A stretch of DNA of 64,000 bases, taken from an uncultured Planctomycetaceae bacterium (GTDB lineage: Bacteria; Planctomycetota; Planctomycetia; Planctomycetales; Planctomycetaceae). Both the position numbers and the translations under genes were made by a program. The notes under the pieces are model-generated. The model did no database searches. It saw only the letters and a list, made by a program, of their open reading frames with translations, and was not told where the DNA came from. Location: positions 1 through 64,000 of the forward strand of contig CALFSX010000297.1 of assembly GCA_937916515.1 (NCBI GenBank), given 5' to 3'. This document shows positions 7,517 to 61,665 of the stretch, piece by piece (the first letter of the stretch is position 1; every line of letters starts with the position of its first letter).

Positions 7517-7712
7517 CAGTCACGAAGTGACGGCAGGTTGTAGCCACGAGCGCGAGCCCGTGGTTTGTAAAAAGTCAGACGGAAAGTCCCGAAGGGACGG
7601 TAGGCGTATCATTTCGCGTTGTTGCCTGTCGTCCCTTCAGGACTGAAAACGACTGTCGAATGCTGTTCCACGGGCTCGCGCCCGTGGCTATCACCTACCG
7701 TCACTTCGTGAC
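7517..7712. repeat. R7 element with long inverted arms
   Basis: Outer arms GTCACGAAGTGACGG and CCGTCACTTCGTGAC flank inner arms built from CCACGAGCGCGAGCCCGTGG and CCACGGGCTCGCGCCCGTGG. The right part (7668-7712) has the family layout: a 20-nt palindrome, then CTATCACCTACC and the GTCAC-TTC-GTGAC hairpin. Related copies are at 23639 and 61526. Confidence 0.75.
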
Positions 7713-7760
7713 TTCAAAGCTTCCCAACTCCAGACTGCGGTCTTTCGCTTTAACTCACTG

Positions 7761-10332: not shown

Positions 10333-10734
10333 CTACGGATCGTGCTCTCCACCACAAACATCATAGGCCTCGCGCTCAAAGGGATTGTCCCGGTAGAATC
10401 GACGACCGGTCAGCCACATGAATGCGGACGACAGAAAGTAGGCAGGCAGCATGAATGGGCCCCAGCGTTCGTATTGTGCAACGTGAACAGCCTCGTGTTT
10501 GCGGGAGATGTCGAGTGATGCGTCGGTTTGGCCGAGGATTGTGTGCCCCAGTGTCAGCGCGAGTGTGAACTGACCGTGGGAAAGACGTTGGACGAACCAT
10601 TTCGTACCGCCATCGTAGAATTCAATCGCGCGACCGCAAATCCGGACGCGACCGCCAAAGCAGAGCCCGATGCCTCCAATCAGAAGGCCAAGCATCGTGT
10701 AAGGCGACGCCCAAAGAATGCGGATAATAAACAA
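10333..10734 (-). CDS. membrane protein with HExxH motif, probable cassette gene
   Basis: A 133-residue protein with an N-terminal membrane segment (LGLLIGGIGLCFGG), a second hydrophobic stretch (PAYFLSSAFMWL) and HEAVHVAQYERWG, an HExxH pattern typical of zinc metallopeptidases. RDNPFEREAYDV near the C-terminus provides a possible third ligand. I know similar short HExxH membrane proteins of unassigned function. The start is uncertain: TTG at 10734, or ATG at 10695. A worn attC-like site lies 27 bp upstream (10761-10819), so this is probably the oldest surviving cassette of the local array. Confidence 0.65.
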   Translation of the reverse strand: MFIIRILWASPYTMLGLLIGGIGLCFGGRVRICGRAIEFYDGGTKWFVQRLSHGQFTLALTLGHTILGQTDASLDISRKHEAVHVAQYERWGPFMLPAYFLSSAFMWLTGRRFYRDNPFEREAYDVCGGEHDP

Positions 10735-10760
10735 CAGTTGGTCAATCGGCGATAGAAAGA

Positions 10761-10819
10761 GTTACAGCATAGAAATCGTCTGGCATGTTGTCGCAGAGGA
10801 CAGGCCAGCGACGTGCAGC
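10761..10819 (-). other. degenerate attC-like site
   Basis: On the plus strand this aligns to the intact site at 13440-13495: both share CATAG, then spaced matches to TCTG, then TGTCGCAGA and a final GCGACGT. The outer boxes have drifted (TTACAGC and GTGCAGC in place of GCCTAAC and GTTGTGC). It marks the upstream edge of the HExxH cassette. Confidence 0.5.
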
Positions 10820-10944
10820 AATCAGGATAGTGGTTTTGCAAGGGATTTCCAGCGGCCAATGTCATTGCGATGCGATTCAGTCACGGAGTGACTGAGGCGC
10901 TTTGCGTGGGATGCCAATCCCCGGAAGCCCTTGCCCCAAACAAC

Positions 10945-11082
10945 ATTAAAGTCTTACTTAAAATGATGCACGCACTGTGCGCGCATGTTGTTCGTAGCGA
11001 CAACGGAGCGGCTCGGCGATTCCAGCGTTCCATGTGTTGCCGCATTCCACGCCACTGGGTCAAGGGCAAAGCCCTTGTTAAA
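10945..11082 (+). repeat. R1 repeat, copy B
   Basis: A full-length R1 copy, from AAAGTCTTACTTAAAATG to GGGCAAAGCCCTTGTTAAAC. The palindrome core reads GCGCACTGTGCGCGC-like, and TTGTTCGTAGCGACAA follows. It is preceded by a short hairpin block that includes AGTCACGGAGTGACTG. Confidence 0.85.
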
Positions 11083-11083
11083 C

Positions 11084-11125
11084 AGAGCATTCCGGACTGC
11101 GGCACGCCGCAGTCCGGAATGCTCT
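11084..11125. repeat. 42-bp near-perfect palindrome
   Basis: AGAGCATTCCGGACTGCGGC is followed two bases later by its exact reverse complement. It begins 2 bp after R1 copy B. No T-run is present on either side, so it is not an obvious terminator. Confidence 0.8.
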
Positions 11126-11185
11126 AAGGACAGTTTTGGGGTGGCTCATCCATCGGTTATCACCGACGGCAAAGTGCTGCCGTCA

Positions 11186-11738
11186 CTACGTGACTAAATC
11201 CCAACATGCTATTTCCATCAAATGCCCTACCAACCACACCGCCTGAAGCCACCGCCACTGCGCGTCTGCCTTGAACCCAAATTTGATGTCCGGCTTGTAC
11301 CGCGCAGACATCAAGTCCTTAATTTTTGTCCGGCGACGAAGCGGCGCTAGAACCACCAACACAAAACGGCCATCCCCGCTGCGGCAATCAATGTTGCCAA
11401 AATTAAATAATGTGACGCAATCTGACCAATGTCTTATGATGCACGAACACTGCGACACCTGACAGCCTCGTCGTCTGAATCGTCGTATTCAGCCAAGGGC
11501 ATCACGATGTACGCGTCCAGCGGCCAGATCGGAACGAATACAAGACACAACCAGAGTACGCTTTGCTAAACCGTGGGGACGCACCCAACGGATTCAGCTT
11601 CGACTGCGAGCGCATCAGACAGTTTGCGCCGATGCTTGCGACCGTAGATTTGGCAAGCGGATTCGTCGTAAGACGCGAGTGTTTCCGTGCCAGCGCCGTC
11701 GATCAATCGTCGCACGATGGGGTCGCTGATCGGTTCGT
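11186..11738 (-). pseudogene. decayed coding region between cassette sites
   Basis: On the minus strand one frame reads for about 62 residues from near 11758, with sensible composition (segments such as DEPISDPIVRRLIDGAG and YGRKHRRKLSDALAVEAES), then meets TAG at about 11570. The same frame continues with a membrane-like stretch (VLWLCLVFVPIWPLDAYIVM), a TAA and another hydrophobic stretch. It looks like one or two former cassette genes broken by stops. I recognise no family. Confidence 0.4.
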
Positions 11739-11928
11739 CACAAAGCCGTTCGTTCTTTAGTCATCCGCACATGGCCAGGAAGTCTGCTCGCTCTGCCTCA
11801 AGCAAGAGCCGGACCTACGAACATCGCCAGTCTGCATGACCACTTGACCGACTCACGTGAGAAGTAACTCAAGAAAAAACACATTCAAGCTTGACGATCT
11901 AAGCCTAATACGAAAAACCATGTTGTAC
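11739..11928 (-). other. attC-like element, long variant (copy 1)
   Basis: Read on the minus strand it opens with the box GTACAAC and then ATGGTTTTTCG, the same box-spacer-L-box start as the sites at 12238 and 12937. The following ~165 bp are nearly identical to 54751-54942 and do not pair back to the L-box, so only the left half of an attC is evident. The opening box is complementary, over 11 bp, to the other end of the cassette at 12234-12244. Confidence 0.6.
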
Positions 11929-11944
11929 GACCGGTGAAGTGCAT

Positions 11945-12226
11945 TCAGGTCATCCAATTCGCAACGGCCGTTCCGAGAACGCACAGGAACGCGATCGCCA
12001 AGCACAGCATCGCAACCCGAAGATGCCAAATCATGAATGGGTAAGCGTAGCCGGGGAGATCGTATCGCAGATTTGTGAGCCACAACGGAGCGGCAATCAG
12101 CAAAAGAACAGATGCTGTGACACCGGCAGCGTGCCACGAACCTGAAAGGCGTTGAATCAGCGGAAGAAGCATTCCCACCGTCAGGCCGTAGATTGCAGTT
12201 TCGGTTAGGCCGCGCGGATCACCCAT
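11945..12226 (-). CDS. small membrane protein, cassette gene
   Basis: I do not recognise this 93-residue protein. It has two or three hydrophobic helices (about residues 9-29, 34-52 and 68-90), with a short loop rich in Tyr and Pro. The ATG lies 12 bp inside the cassette boundary and the stop lies 17 bp from the opposite boundary, so the ORF fills the cassette. The orientation of gene and sites is the usual one: the stop faces the site that belongs to the cassette. Confidence 0.7.
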   Translation of the reverse strand: MGDPRGLTETAIYGLTVGMLLPLIQRLSGSWHAAGVTASVLLLIAAPLWLTNLRYDLPGYAYPFMIWHLRVAMLCLAIAFLCVLGTAVANWMT

Positions 12227-12237
12227 CTCGGTAGGTC

Positions 12238-12375
12238 GTACAACGGAAGGTTTTTACGACACCGCCCTGAACGAAGCGGGCGATGTCTGAACTACCAACG
12301 ATTGTACCAAGGCGAGCCCGCGTGGCCAAACATGGAAGGTGTGCCGCAGGCCTCAGCGTAAAACCCATATTCGCC
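12238..12375 (-). other. attC-like cassette recombination site
   Basis: A 138-bp imperfect inverted repeat. Its outer boxes are GTACAAC (plus strand, 12238-12244) and a worn ATTCGCC where GTTAGCC is expected. L-box arms GGTTTTTACG and CGTAAAACCC pair inside. The body is about 85% identical by eye to 12937-13073. The worn box keeps the adjoining GCCGACTGC, which matches the start of the cassette it closes. Confidence 0.75.
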
Positions 12376-12391
12376 GACTGCTTGAGGTAGG

Positions 12392-12928
12392 TTATTGGTC
12401 AACCCCACGGTAGATTCCATCGTCCGGAATGCTATTGTTTACGTCTTCCATGTCGATGTTGGCAATGGACAAGTTGTTTTCAAGTTCTTGTACGACGTGA
12501 GGTAGATGACGAACCGATTGAAGATCGTCAGCAGGGACAGCTGACGGCGGGCGTTCGTAGTCCGCAACATCGGTTGAGTTCGGAAAAAAGTAATGCAACG
12601 TGATGGTGTCTTCATCTTCGGGCGAAGTTTCACCCGTTGCCGCAAATACGAAGCCACCAGGATAGTCAGCCGGGAGCGCGTGCACCAAGTCGATATCCGA
12701 AAGCCCGTAGTACTTGGGGTCATCAACGAATTGGACATTGGCGAGAAAACCAAACGAACCAACGGGAGCGGAAATGCGATCTTTGAGAGACACCCAGAGC
12801 TCTGGTCGGTCATTGAATGTGCGGACGACCCATGGATCATGTGCAGACACGTCGCCGGTGTTTTGTGGCATGGAACAACCAAGCGTCAGAGTGCAGAACA
12901 AGAGGCTGAATGTGAGCAGTGATTTCAT
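12392..12928 (-). CDS. lipoprotein, cassette gene
   Basis: This 178-residue protein has a lipoprotein signal peptide: MKSLLTFSLLFCTLTLGC, with the lipobox LTLGC ending at residue 18. The mature part is acidic and has no family I recognise. It contains WVSLKDRISAPVGSFGFLANVQF, described here by its W45, G57 and F59-like positions, and a region rich in Asp/Glu/Thr. The ATG is 9 bp from the cassette boundary at 12937 and the stop is 17 bp from the other boundary. Confidence 0.75.
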   Translation of the reverse strand: MKSLLTFSLLFCTLTLGCSMPQNTGDVSAHDPWVVRTFNDRPELWVSLKDRISAPVGSFGFLANVQFVDDPKYYGLSDIDLVHALPADYPGGFVFAATGETSPEDEDTITLHYFFPNSTDVADYERPPSAVPADDLQSVRHLPHVVQELENNLSIANIDMEDVNNSIPDDGIYRGVDQ

Positions 12929-12936
12929 CTGCAGTC

Positions 12937-13073
12937 GGCTAACGGAAGGTTTTTACGACACCGCCCTAAACGAAGCGGACGACGTCTGAACTACGAGAGA
13001 TTGTACCAATGCCAGCCCGCGTGACCAACCAAGGAAGGTGTGCCGAAGGCCTAGCGTAAAAACCATGTTAGGC
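12937..13073 (-). other. attC-like cassette recombination site
   Basis: This is the best-preserved site. On the minus strand it runs from GCCTAAC to GTTAGCC. The L-box arms GGTTTTTACG and CGTAAAAACC form a 10-bp perfect pair, separated from the outer boxes by unequal spacers (AT versus GGAA), which matches the unpaired central spacer of known attC sites. The 137-bp length is within the range of long attC sites. Confidence 0.8.
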
Positions 13074-13084
13074 GACCGGCCACA

Positions 13085-13423
13085 CTACGAACCAGAGTTA
13101 GGCGTTGGGGATATGTCGTGTTCAAACCAATGCGAACAATACGGACAGGAAACGTCGAGGATGTCTGCGAATTCGTAATCAACGAACGATTCCGGCGGAT
13201 CGTTTTGTGCGGCGATGTAGTCACGCCGCGATTTCGCCATGCGAGAAAACGCGGACGATCCAGCACGCCAACCAACAGTGCGGCCACACTGCGGGCATCG
13301 AATACGAGACACGCGGATACGCGAACCAAGCCAGCTAGCGAACAGGAGCGTTACGAACAACGCGACGAACAGCAAGAGGCCGCAGGAGACGATAAGTGAT
13401 AACCAGCGGAAGAATGTTGCCAT
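13085..13423 (-). CDS. membrane-anchored zinc-ribbon-like protein, cassette gene
   Basis: The 112-residue protein has an N-terminal hydrophobic segment (about residues 8-33) and two CxxC pairs: CPQCGR near residue 45 and CPYCSHWFEHD near residue 95. Together they could hold one zinc ion. I recognise no named family. ATG 13423 is preferred to the GTG one codon earlier. The ORF fills the cassette between 13073 and 13440, and the boundary sequences GTTAGGCGACC and GGTCGCCTAAC are exact complements. Confidence 0.72.
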   Translation of the reverse strand: MATFFRWLSLIVSCGLLLFVALFVTLLFASWLGSRIRVSRIRCPQCGRTVGWRAGSSAFSRMAKSRRDYIAAQNDPPESFVDYEFADILDVSCPYCSHWFEHDISPTPNSGS

Positions 13424-13439
13424 CACATTGCACTAGGTC

Positions 13440-13495
13440 GCCTAACATAGTGATTCTCTGACAAGGTGTCGCAGAAACGGTCTGCGACGTTGTGC
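13440..13495 (-). other. attC-like cassette recombination site, short type
   Basis: A 56-bp site with outer boxes GCCTAAC and GTTGTGC (plus strand). Its body (TTCTCTGACAAGGTGTCGCA) is also found at 55399-55462. It is the first site of the array, about 105 bp from the stop of the chromosomal gene at 13601. Confidence 0.7.
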
Positions 13496-23597: not shown

Positions 23598-23683
23598 CAT
23601 GTCGTCGCTCCGCGACTTCCCTGGATTTGACCGGGCCACCTCGGACTAAAGTCCGAGGCTATCATCTGCCGTCGCTCCGCGAC
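23598..23683. repeat. R7 element
   Basis: The core CCTCGGACTAAAGTCCGAGG (23639-23658) is followed by CTATCATCTGCC and the tail hairpin GTCGC-TCC-GCGAC. A further GTCGCTCCGCGAC lies to the left at about 23602. Confidence 0.75.
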
Positions 23684-23706
23684 TAGATCACCACGCCAAG
23701 TCGTCT

Positions 23707-54750: not shown

Positions 54751-54942
54751 ACACAAAGCCGTTCGTTCTTTAGTCATCCGCACATGGCCGGGAAGTCTGC
54801 TCGCTCTGCCTCAAGCAAGAGCCGGACCTACGAACATCGCCAGTCTGCATGACCACTTGGCCGACTCATGTGAGAAGTATCTCAACAAAAAACACATACT
54901 CAAGCTTGACGATCTAAGCCTAATACGAAAACCATGTTGTGC
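54751..54942 (-). other. attC-like element, long variant (copy 2)
   Basis: On the minus strand it begins GCACAAC-ATGGTTTTCG and then matches 11739-11928 nearly base for base. The box differs (GCACAAC versus GTACAAC), as expected for sites in different cassettes. It marks the downstream edge of the SUKH cassette. Confidence 0.6.
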
Positions 54943-54944
54943 GG

Positions 54945-55388
54945 CTACTCGGGCATGGAGCCTGCGCACCACTGGTCAACGAATCGCCGAAAACTCGATG
55001 CAGCCCACGAACGGGCGTCCGTCTCGTGGTCCCACCGGTACACATTGTGGGGATCAACACCAGTCGAGAGGATGCGAAACGCGAAGCAGTCACCGCCAGA
55101 ATCCGACGCAAAAAAGAACAAATGATCGAATGGCATGTAAAGTTCAGGATAGTCGGATGCCGTCCTGAACTCACGGTTTTGCGATGTAATTTCATCGGTT
55201 GACCAGCAAAGAGAGCCAAAGAACGACTCTACTCCGTTGGATTCAGCGAGCAGTTGCCGCAGAGCGTCGGGGAATTTGATCTGGAATTCGGATTCGACAG
55301 CCGCAATATCGGCCTCGGATGCTGGAGCAGCGAACTCAGGTTCAGCGTCGCTGGAGGTCGATGCAGATTGAATAAGGTCACGCCACAT
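54945..55388 (-). CDS. SUKH (SMI1/KNR4) family protein, cassette gene
   Basis: The 147-residue protein matches the SUKH fold: SEADIAAVESEFQIKFPDALRQLLAESNG near residue 30, given here by its landmarks E31, F42, P44 and N57. FFASDSGGDCFAFRI and VYRWDHETDARSW follow. SUKH proteins are often immunity proteins against bacterial toxins; no toxin lies beside it. The ATG is 11 bp inside the cassette, the stop is 3 bp from the other boundary, and the ends share a 13-bp complement. Confidence 0.85.
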   Translation of the reverse strand: MWRDLIQSASTSSDAEPEFAAPASEADIAAVESEFQIKFPDALRQLLAESNGVESFFGSLCWSTDEITSQNREFRTASDYPELYMPFDHLFFFASDSGGDCFAFRILSTGVDPHNVYRWDHETDARSWAASSFRRFVDQWCAGSMPE

Positions 55389-55398
55389 TCTTGTAGCC

Positions 55399-55462
55399 GC
55401 ACAACATCGTGATTCTCTGACAAGGTGTCGCAGAAACGGGTTCGGGCGACTTGATGTTGTGA
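55399..55462 (-). other. attC-like cassette recombination site, short type
   Basis: The 64-bp site has boxes GCACAAC (plus strand) and GTTGTGA, with CACAACATC and GATGTTGTG as a perfect 9-bp pair. Its body matches 13440-13495 over about 25 bp (GTGATTCTCTGACAAGG, then TGTCGCAGAAACGG). Confidence 0.75.
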
Positions 55463-59897: not shown

Positions 59898-60107
59898 CGG
59901 ACGCAACAACGAAGCGGCTCCAGTTTTAAGCGGTTTGAATTTCAGTGCACGTGCGGCTTCGCAAACCTTCCGCGGTTCCAGCCACAAACCGGGCGGGAAT
60001 CAGGGCGCGAAGAGCTGGAAAACGTGAACGACGTTTGAAATTCAAAACAATGGAGGCTGAATTGTTTCGGCCGACATCGCCTTTCCGCGAAGGTGATATC
60101 AACAACG

Positions 60108-60322
60108 TTTCAGGCAGGTCTTCTGGCTTCCGGATCGTCCAGAATTTCTTTCCTTCCCACCATCGACACCAGATTTTGGTCTGGCTAATGACAGCAGTGG
60201 ACTGAATAAGAAATCTGTCCCCGGTTACAGCGGCGGGACCGCGACGGAATTGAGCATGGCCGTTTGGCGTCGCTCTCACCGTCTTCCCTTTTCATTTGCT
60301 CCAACGCGTCAACTTTCTGCCG
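60108..60322 (-). ncRNA. cobalamin riboswitch
   Basis: On the minus strand the conserved parts appear in order: AAAAGGGAAGACGGTG, then CTCAATTCCGTCGCGG, GTCCCGCCGCTGTAACCGGG and finally AGCCAGAAGACCTGCCTG. These match the B12-box core and the 3' arm of the cobalamin class. The nearest gene downstream on this strand is the DUF1559 gene. Exact ends are approximate. Confidence 0.88.
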
Positions 60323-60511
60323 CGTAGCAAACACCTGAATCGTTTCTTAACAGAAATGTGCGAACTGCAGCATTTCTATTAAGCAGACGCAGGCTATCAG
60401 GCGTCGCTTTGAATACAAGCTCCACTTCCGATTGATTCGTGATTTCTGCACCGTAGAATCATCAACTGGCAGGTATTCATTCATCCCCACTTTTTTGATT
60501 GATCAAGTTTG

Positions 60512-61488: not shown

Positions 61489-61570
61489 GGAGCGACGACA
61501 GACGATCGCCTAGGACTTCAGCCAACCTCGGGTTAAAACCCGAGGCTATCACCTGTCGTCGCTCCGCGAC
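61489..61570. repeat. R7 element
   Basis: It starts with GTCGCGGAGCGACGACAG and ends with its complement. Near the right end lies the core CCTCGGGTTAAAACCCGAGG (61526-61545) and then CTATCACCTGTC plus the GTCGC-TCC-GCGAC hairpin. Confidence 0.8.
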
Positions 61571-61665
61571 TCACCTGTCGCAACGTGCAACGACGCTGAA
61601 AAATCGAAAAGTGTTTTGAGCCTCACGGCGTAGTGCCAGCCTTCTGCCACTTGCATCGCGCCTAA

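Follow-up and report, generated by a model that had tools for sequence, protein, structure and literature searches.

Described integrons, such as those of Vibrio and class 1, are headed by an attI site and carry tandem, co-oriented arrays of one-gene cassettes whose attC sites have paired R and L boxes and a GTTRNNY core, with the gene for the recombinase IntI at the head. Published accounts hold the I2 helix to be required for cassette capture and unique to IntI proteins, and the extrahelical bases of attC are its partners; the origin of I2 alongside attC is a stated paradox with no known intermediates (PMC7790495, PMC4792948). The attI head, the tandem one-gene cassettes, the paired R and L boxes, the core and the recombinase gene at the head recur in the system reported here, which came to light in a 64,000-nucleotide (nt) stretch of contig C297 (the window) of an uncultured Planctomycetaceae bacterium, whose genome of 8.33 Mb lies in 343 contigs. 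The system differs in that its likely integrase has no I2 patch, falls outside the IntI clade and carries a C-terminal extension of ~100 amino acids (aa), in that cassette ends are complementary over 11-12 bp and the L arm of attC is usually without a bulged base, and in that this species has several short attI-headed arrays per genome. We propose, with a probability of about 0.7, that the window holds short integron-type arrays with their own attI-like heads, that these belong to a dispersed system, and that its integrase is most likely the I2-less tyrosine recombinase encoded in one copy, on contig C279, which would act on the window in trans.

Other described systems share part of this picture. 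As in a cluster of attC sites lacking integron-integrases (CALIN; IntegronFinder, PMC9024848), the window contig has no integrase gene; unlike a CALIN, the array begins with an attI-like site, and another contig of the genome encodes a non-IntI recombinase that is likely cognate. XerC/XerD and the integrative mobile elements exploiting Xer (IMEX), such as CTXphi, whose hairpin stem mimics double-stranded DNA without extrahelical bases (PMC4792948), resemble the present system in having no I2. The recombinase described here, however, lies outside the XerC/XerD clade, with a joint clade not rejected by the approximately unbiased (AU) test, and it is partnered in the genome by a cassette array in place of dif. 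The delta-attI cassettes of mobile integrons (PMC12901181) also carry attI sequence away from the integrase, whereas here near-complete attI-like copies head separate arrays. The available part of Smyshlyaev et al. (PMC8138268) ties no patch-less member of the integron-like tyrosine recombinase subgroup to attC arrays. Among open-licence papers on multiple attI sites, Fuerstiella integrons and integron-like systems with Xer-like enzymes, no such system was found, nor was any open-licence paper found that links I2-less enzymes to attC arrays.

The window array lies on the minus strand, is read from 13490 to 11725, and is composed of three cassettes with one open reading frame (ORF) each, two complete attC sites and a variant end site:

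13440 to 13480, minus strand: attI-like head of the array, with core CCGTTTCTGCGACACCTTGTCAGAGAATCACTATG, ending at the putative crossover G^TT
13063 to 13446, minus strand: cassette 1, ORF 13426-13085, 113 aa
12932 to 13078, minus strand: attC site 1, complete, with R''/R' arm, L''/L' arm of 10 bp and lateral GCC-TTC-GGC hairpin; 174.5 bits against a covariance model of which it is a training sequence
12365 to 12943, minus strand: cassette 2, ORF 12928-12392, a 178-aa predicted lipoprotein with DUF6924
12233 to 12380, minus strand: attC site 2, complete, with a worn R'' box (GGCGAAT); 146.1 bits, also a training sequence of the model
11918 to 12244, minus strand: cassette 3, ORF 12226-11945, a 93-aa hydrophobic protein of no family
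11725 to 11921, minus strand: 3' terminal element, which opens with an attC-like R'' and L'' and continues for ~170 bp with different sequence

Similarity of the head to the copy on C279 spans 13439-13490. The cassettes stand in tandem and in the same orientation, and their ORFs start 15-20 nt past the GTT boundary and stop 22-27 nt before the next one, boundary bases being included in these counts. The two complete attC sites, of ~147 nt each, are 88-89% identical to one another and combine R''/R' and L''/L' arms with a GTTRNNY-type core and with pairing that is kept despite sequence change. The product of the first cassette has an N-terminal hydrophobic stretch and CxxC motifs and is zinc-ribbon-like, with no family above cut-off. 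An Rfam search gave no match at the array. The original prediction, made from the sequence alone, had placed three cassettes of one ORF each between structured sites; the single ORF per cassette held good, but the third cassette ends in the longer terminal element and not in a complete attC.

The two ends of each window cassette are complementary (GTTAGGCGACC/GGTCGCCTAAC, GTTGTACGACC/GGTCGTACAAC, and GCCGACTGC against the worn GCAGTCGGCGAAT) over 9-12 bp, well past the usual 7-nt core. When the start of each of 16 cassettes of this genome was compared with its own end, 120/144 variable positions matched, against 74.6 expected by permutation, and 0/200,000 permutations reached this value. Positions 8-12 alone, outside the 7-nt core, matched at 64/80 against 43.4 expected (0/200,000 permutations). 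With the sites written as in the free circular cassette, the R arm showed changes on both sides in 7/12 pairs, and the covariation score was 0.240 compared with 0.095 for shuffled sites (0/500) and at most 0.049 for slid structures. The single-sequence folding energy of the sites was not unusual relative to shuffles (z -0.05 to -1.04); therefore, the evidence is covariation and not stability. Matching of own ends was also found in the planctomycete genomes G418 (190 vs 130.5 expected) and G400 (82 vs 61.5 expected), each with 0/20,000 permutations. These data are most naturally read as showing that the cassette is a unit under selection for the pairing of its two ends.

The asymmetry left in attC consists of an unpaired spacer of 2 vs 4 nt and the lateral GCC-TTC-GGC hairpin on one strand only. 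The L arm (GGTTTTTACG/CGTAAAAACC) pairs at 9-10/10 positions without a bulge in 23/27 sites of G418 and 9/13 sites of G400. Pairing was better with one bulge in 3/27 and 3/13 sites, respectively, and some of the poorly pairing sites are longer variants of ~220 nt or out of register. An enzyme without I2 and sites mostly without a bulged base fit the proposal that the two evolved jointly, and the lateral hairpin may replace the extrahelical bases in strand choice. The complementary boundary sequences of the original prediction, including the worn third box, are present as claimed, its structured sites with paired arms and unequal unpaired spacers agree with the 2/4-nt spacer and the R-arm covariation, and its gene-cassette array is borne out by the covariation of the ends together with covariance-model finds of the same sites in other planctomycetes.

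The leader CCGTTTCTGCGACACCTTGTCAGAnAATCACTATG heads array after array in this genome and stops exactly at the cassette start (TTRNNC), as an attI would. Six copies have at most one mismatch (two on C297 and one each on C279, C178, C136 and C101), and the attI core on C279 is identical to that of the window array. Further copies are found on C11 (with a 3-nt insertion), on C32 (18431-18460, L097; 3 mismatches) and, decayed, at 10802-10762 of the window. Upstream of most copies is a promoter-like sequence (TTGAAA/TGGAAA-16/17-TATCCT/TAAYCT). No recombinase relative was found in the stretches examined around the leader copies of C136, C178, C101, C11 and the window. With up to 3 mismatches allowed, the core pattern turned up in none of the other seven genomes of the genus; the G007 site is a diverged version. 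In the attI copies of this species (window 13446-13448, L009 7769-7771), an ATG ends in the putative crossover G, so that translation could start in attI and run on into the cassette (ATG TTR ...); on C279, the ATG frame from attI is open through the entire first cassette.

Sites of the same attC kind occur on seven other contigs of the genome, with a fragment on C91. Genome-wide, ~20 cassettes could be delimited, with ORFs usually starting 15-21 nt past GTT and stopping ~20-27 nt before the next site. Recognisable contents include SUKH/SMI1 proteins, DUF6924, DUF4177, a weak dual-specificity-phosphatase match and an antitoxin/ParE pair, and most cassettes are without assignment. Apart from the array described above, the window contains a second unit and a decayed site:

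55399 to 55439, minus strand: second good attI-like head, with conserved promoter-like sequence upstream
54932 to 55405, minus strand: sole cassette of this unit, with a 147-aa ORF (55388-54945) of the SUKH/SMI1-KNR4 family and ends that are complementary over 12 bp or more
54752 to 54935, minus strand: 3' terminal element that closes the second unit; identity to 11725-11921, 96%
10762 to 10802, minus strand: decayed attI-like site, score 14.7 (best of 384,652 shuffled windows, 10.96)
10333 to 10734, minus strand: 133-aa ORF that follows the decayed site

The 3' terminal element is common to four arrays at 94-96% identity (window 11725-11921 and 54752-54935, C136 30295-30479 and C178 4892-5058). 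A different cassette precedes each copy, and the element begins like an attC and then diverges; the C292 copy (10875-10952, partial) joins the first half of the element to a normal attC. The element may be a long attC variant or an inserted repeat. The ORF at 10333-10734, which the original prediction had included in the array, was rejected as a normal cassette, since no attC was found; the decayed attI-like site precedes it.

On C279, the gene of a 481-aa tyrosine recombinase (7625-6180) diverges from the adjoining leader, on the other side of which lie a cassette and attC. The protein scored 218.9 bits against TIGR02249, short of the cut-off at 265 bits, and this match is split at the place where IntI carries its extra domain; alignments showed that the IntI patch stretch ALERKYP...W.W.WVF is absent. 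This I2 patch was absent from 6/6 array-linked recombinases, five of them complete, and present in 21/21 IntI compared. The catalytic motifs of the C279 recombinase are present, with the tyrosine visible in the alignment, and its C-terminal extension, for which Pfam gave no match, is conserved across the genus. Scores of 186-187 bits against cut-offs of 330-335 place the protein outside the XerC and XerD families. In a tree built without the patch columns, the 21 IntI formed one clade (100/100) and the six I2-less proteins another (100/93), both clades grouped together (93/84), and the I2-less proteins were separate from the Xer clade (100/100). The I2-less proteins are not nested among the sampled IntI, and the sequence phylogeny makes it likely that their lineage is sister to IntI.

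An integron sensu stricto is recognised by a recombinase of the IntI clade with the I2 domain, and the C279 recombinase has neither property. The accepted definition of IntI excludes such an enzyme (PMC7784347), which escapes it because the IntI patch is missing, and the system is therefore classed here as integron-like in its working rather than as a standard integron. The original prediction of a CALIN without integrase was right in that the window has two attC sites and no recombinase of this kind was found in it, but it missed the attI-like head and the likely cognate recombinase on C279. It had suggested a look for IntI with its attI site elsewhere in the genome: an attI-like site lies beside the C279 recombinase, which is I2-less, and no attI of this type was found on C142 and C43, the contigs with IntI-like genes. 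CALIN status is partly a product of the integrase definition.

The linkage of recombinase, attI-like site and array recurs in other species. In G007, a pseudogene of the recombinase family with its catalytic region deleted diverges from an attI-like site, which is followed by a cassette and attC. In three genomes from another family of the same class, an intact and co-oriented recombinase gene lies directly upstream of attC arrays, encoding 457 aa before 27 attC in G418, 523 aa before at least 13 attC in G400 and 517 aa before 4 attC in G436; the genomes G418 and G400 are complete. In these three, a promoter-like -10 and then an attI-like sequence (...TGTCGC..AAA.AC.. before GTT) come after the recombinase gene. 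In G004, which is complete on a single contig, cassettes adjoin a recombinase copy whose gene is upstream and co-oriented. An attI-like head stands beside the recombinase in C279 and G007, with the gene divergent from the array, and at the window array with no integrase gene adjoining. In G004, IS110-type transposase genes apparently sit at the R'' box of attC sites (L061, L160, L163); we take them to resemble the attC-targeting IS1111 group.

The attC covariance model, built from the sites of this genome, detected such sites in other planctomycetes as well, in arrays that ranged from 4 to 27. Among 170 genomes of the home family, the C-extension of the recombinase was found in 13, attC sites in 21 and both in 10 (P = 2e-8), whereas patch-bearing IntI above cut-off was found in 43, of which 9 had attC, a weak association (P = 0.048); these Fisher P values treat related genomes as independent and are indicative only. 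Many family copies of the recombinase are without the catalytic region yet keep the C-extension (L063, L151, L155, L159, L160, L161, L168, L169), and its repeated survival in such catalytically deleted copies is odd.

Cassette content varied between species. A toxin-antitoxin cassette at array position 4 on contig C188 of this genome and the first cassette of G007 share 74% DNA identity over 539 bp. The first cassette of C101 has a 45% identical relative in G002, where it immediately follows an attC next to a recombinase remnant. What the arrays contain, and in which position, thus varies from species to species, as it should if cassettes are mobile.

In the mechanism that we propose, the attC of a cassette, made up of its own 3' end and its own 5' end, would be recognised as a folded strand with an R arm of 11-12 bp, an L arm of 10 bp and a 2/4-nt spacer. 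Strand exchange would take place at G^TT between attC and attI or a second attC, so that cassettes could be excised as circles and inserted behind attI, and the promoter at most attI copies would drive the inserted cassettes. The C279 recombinase would act in trans on the window array.

Several observations weigh against this proposal or limit it. The promoter-like part is not conserved at the attI-like head of the window array (13440-13480). Intact I2-less enzymes are known from only five genomes, with one partial enzyme, and most copies in the home family are decayed. Placement of the I2-less proteins with XerC/D was not rejected (AU p 0.135), nor was placement with the planctomycete tyrosine recombinases L034-L036, provisionally labelled IS91-type (AU p 0.116). 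The attC model, made from this genome, would miss other attC types and matches the window sites by construction. The search for patch-bearing IntI covered the 170 home-family genomes, and G418, G400 and G436 lie outside it. Finally, the genome itself has patch-bearing IntI-like genes, on C142 (L010 10255-11835) and as a fragment at the edge of C43 (L011 7125-7805), which scored 335.7 and 295.2 bits against TIGR02249, both above cut-off. These two genes give weight to an explanation in which ordinary integron arrays are moved in trans by a standard patch-bearing IntI, such as that of C142, with the I2-less recombinase a bystander or serving another purpose; the extra domain is, moreover, held necessary for cassette capture (Messier and Roy 2001, as cited in PMC7790495). 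However, neither the C142 nor the C43 contig has an attC or attI of this type, and none of the IntI matches listed in the 170 genomes lies on an attC contig, the distance in the single-contig genome G004 being about 1 Mb or more. Genomes G001, G089, G179 and G181 have attC but no patch-bearing IntI at E <= 1e-40, and an intact I2-less gene stands immediately in front of the longest arrays. We therefore consider a standard IntI improbable as the driver of these arrays.

It is quite possible, if not what we favor, that the window array is a fossil, a true CALIN whose cassettes were stranded by past activity and are immobile, in a system that is decaying in the genus. The lost promoter part of the window attI, the worn R'' box of the second attC, the last site that is no complete attC and the many recombinase copies without a catalytic region are all as a fossil would have them, but the first attC and the core of attI have hardly changed, and all catalytic motifs are kept in the C279 recombinase. 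This alternative concerns present activity and not the nature of the system, and can be compatible with an integron-type system served by the I2-less recombinase. A last alternative, that the sites are an unrelated dispersed intergenic repeat that flanks small genes by chance, could draw on their 80-98% likeness within the genome, which is like that of dispersed repeats, and on the terminal elements, which run into other intergenic repeats. It is already contradicted by the cassette-specific complementarity of ends with covariation, and the uniform orientation within arrays, the one-ORF units and the presence of attI and recombinase at the heads in two families also oppose it; we regard it as very improbable.

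An I2-less recombinase at the head of 27 and at least 13 attC could be an intermediate of this kind, could have lost I2 secondarily or could embody a second solution. The broader claim that large attC arrays, on hairpins that mimic plain double-stranded sites, are run by an I2-less lineage that is sister to the integron integrases is tentative, and we hold it to be rather unlikely. If it were true, cassette capture would have no need of the I2 helix and may predate it, which would resolve the chicken-and-egg problem of the origin of I2 and attC. Surveys that require the patch will class such integrons as CALINs or overlook their integrases.

Other features of the window lie outside the arrays. 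A perfect 20-bp inverted repeat with a 2-nt loop (11084-11125) adjoins a dispersed repeat (10996-11085) that is also present on C91. Four matches to the Acido-Lenti-1 RNA (Rfam RF01687), an RNA without known function, were found at 7518-7563, 7668-7713, 23639-23684 and 61526-61571, and a cobalamin riboswitch was detected on the minus strand at 60096-60353 (110 bits).

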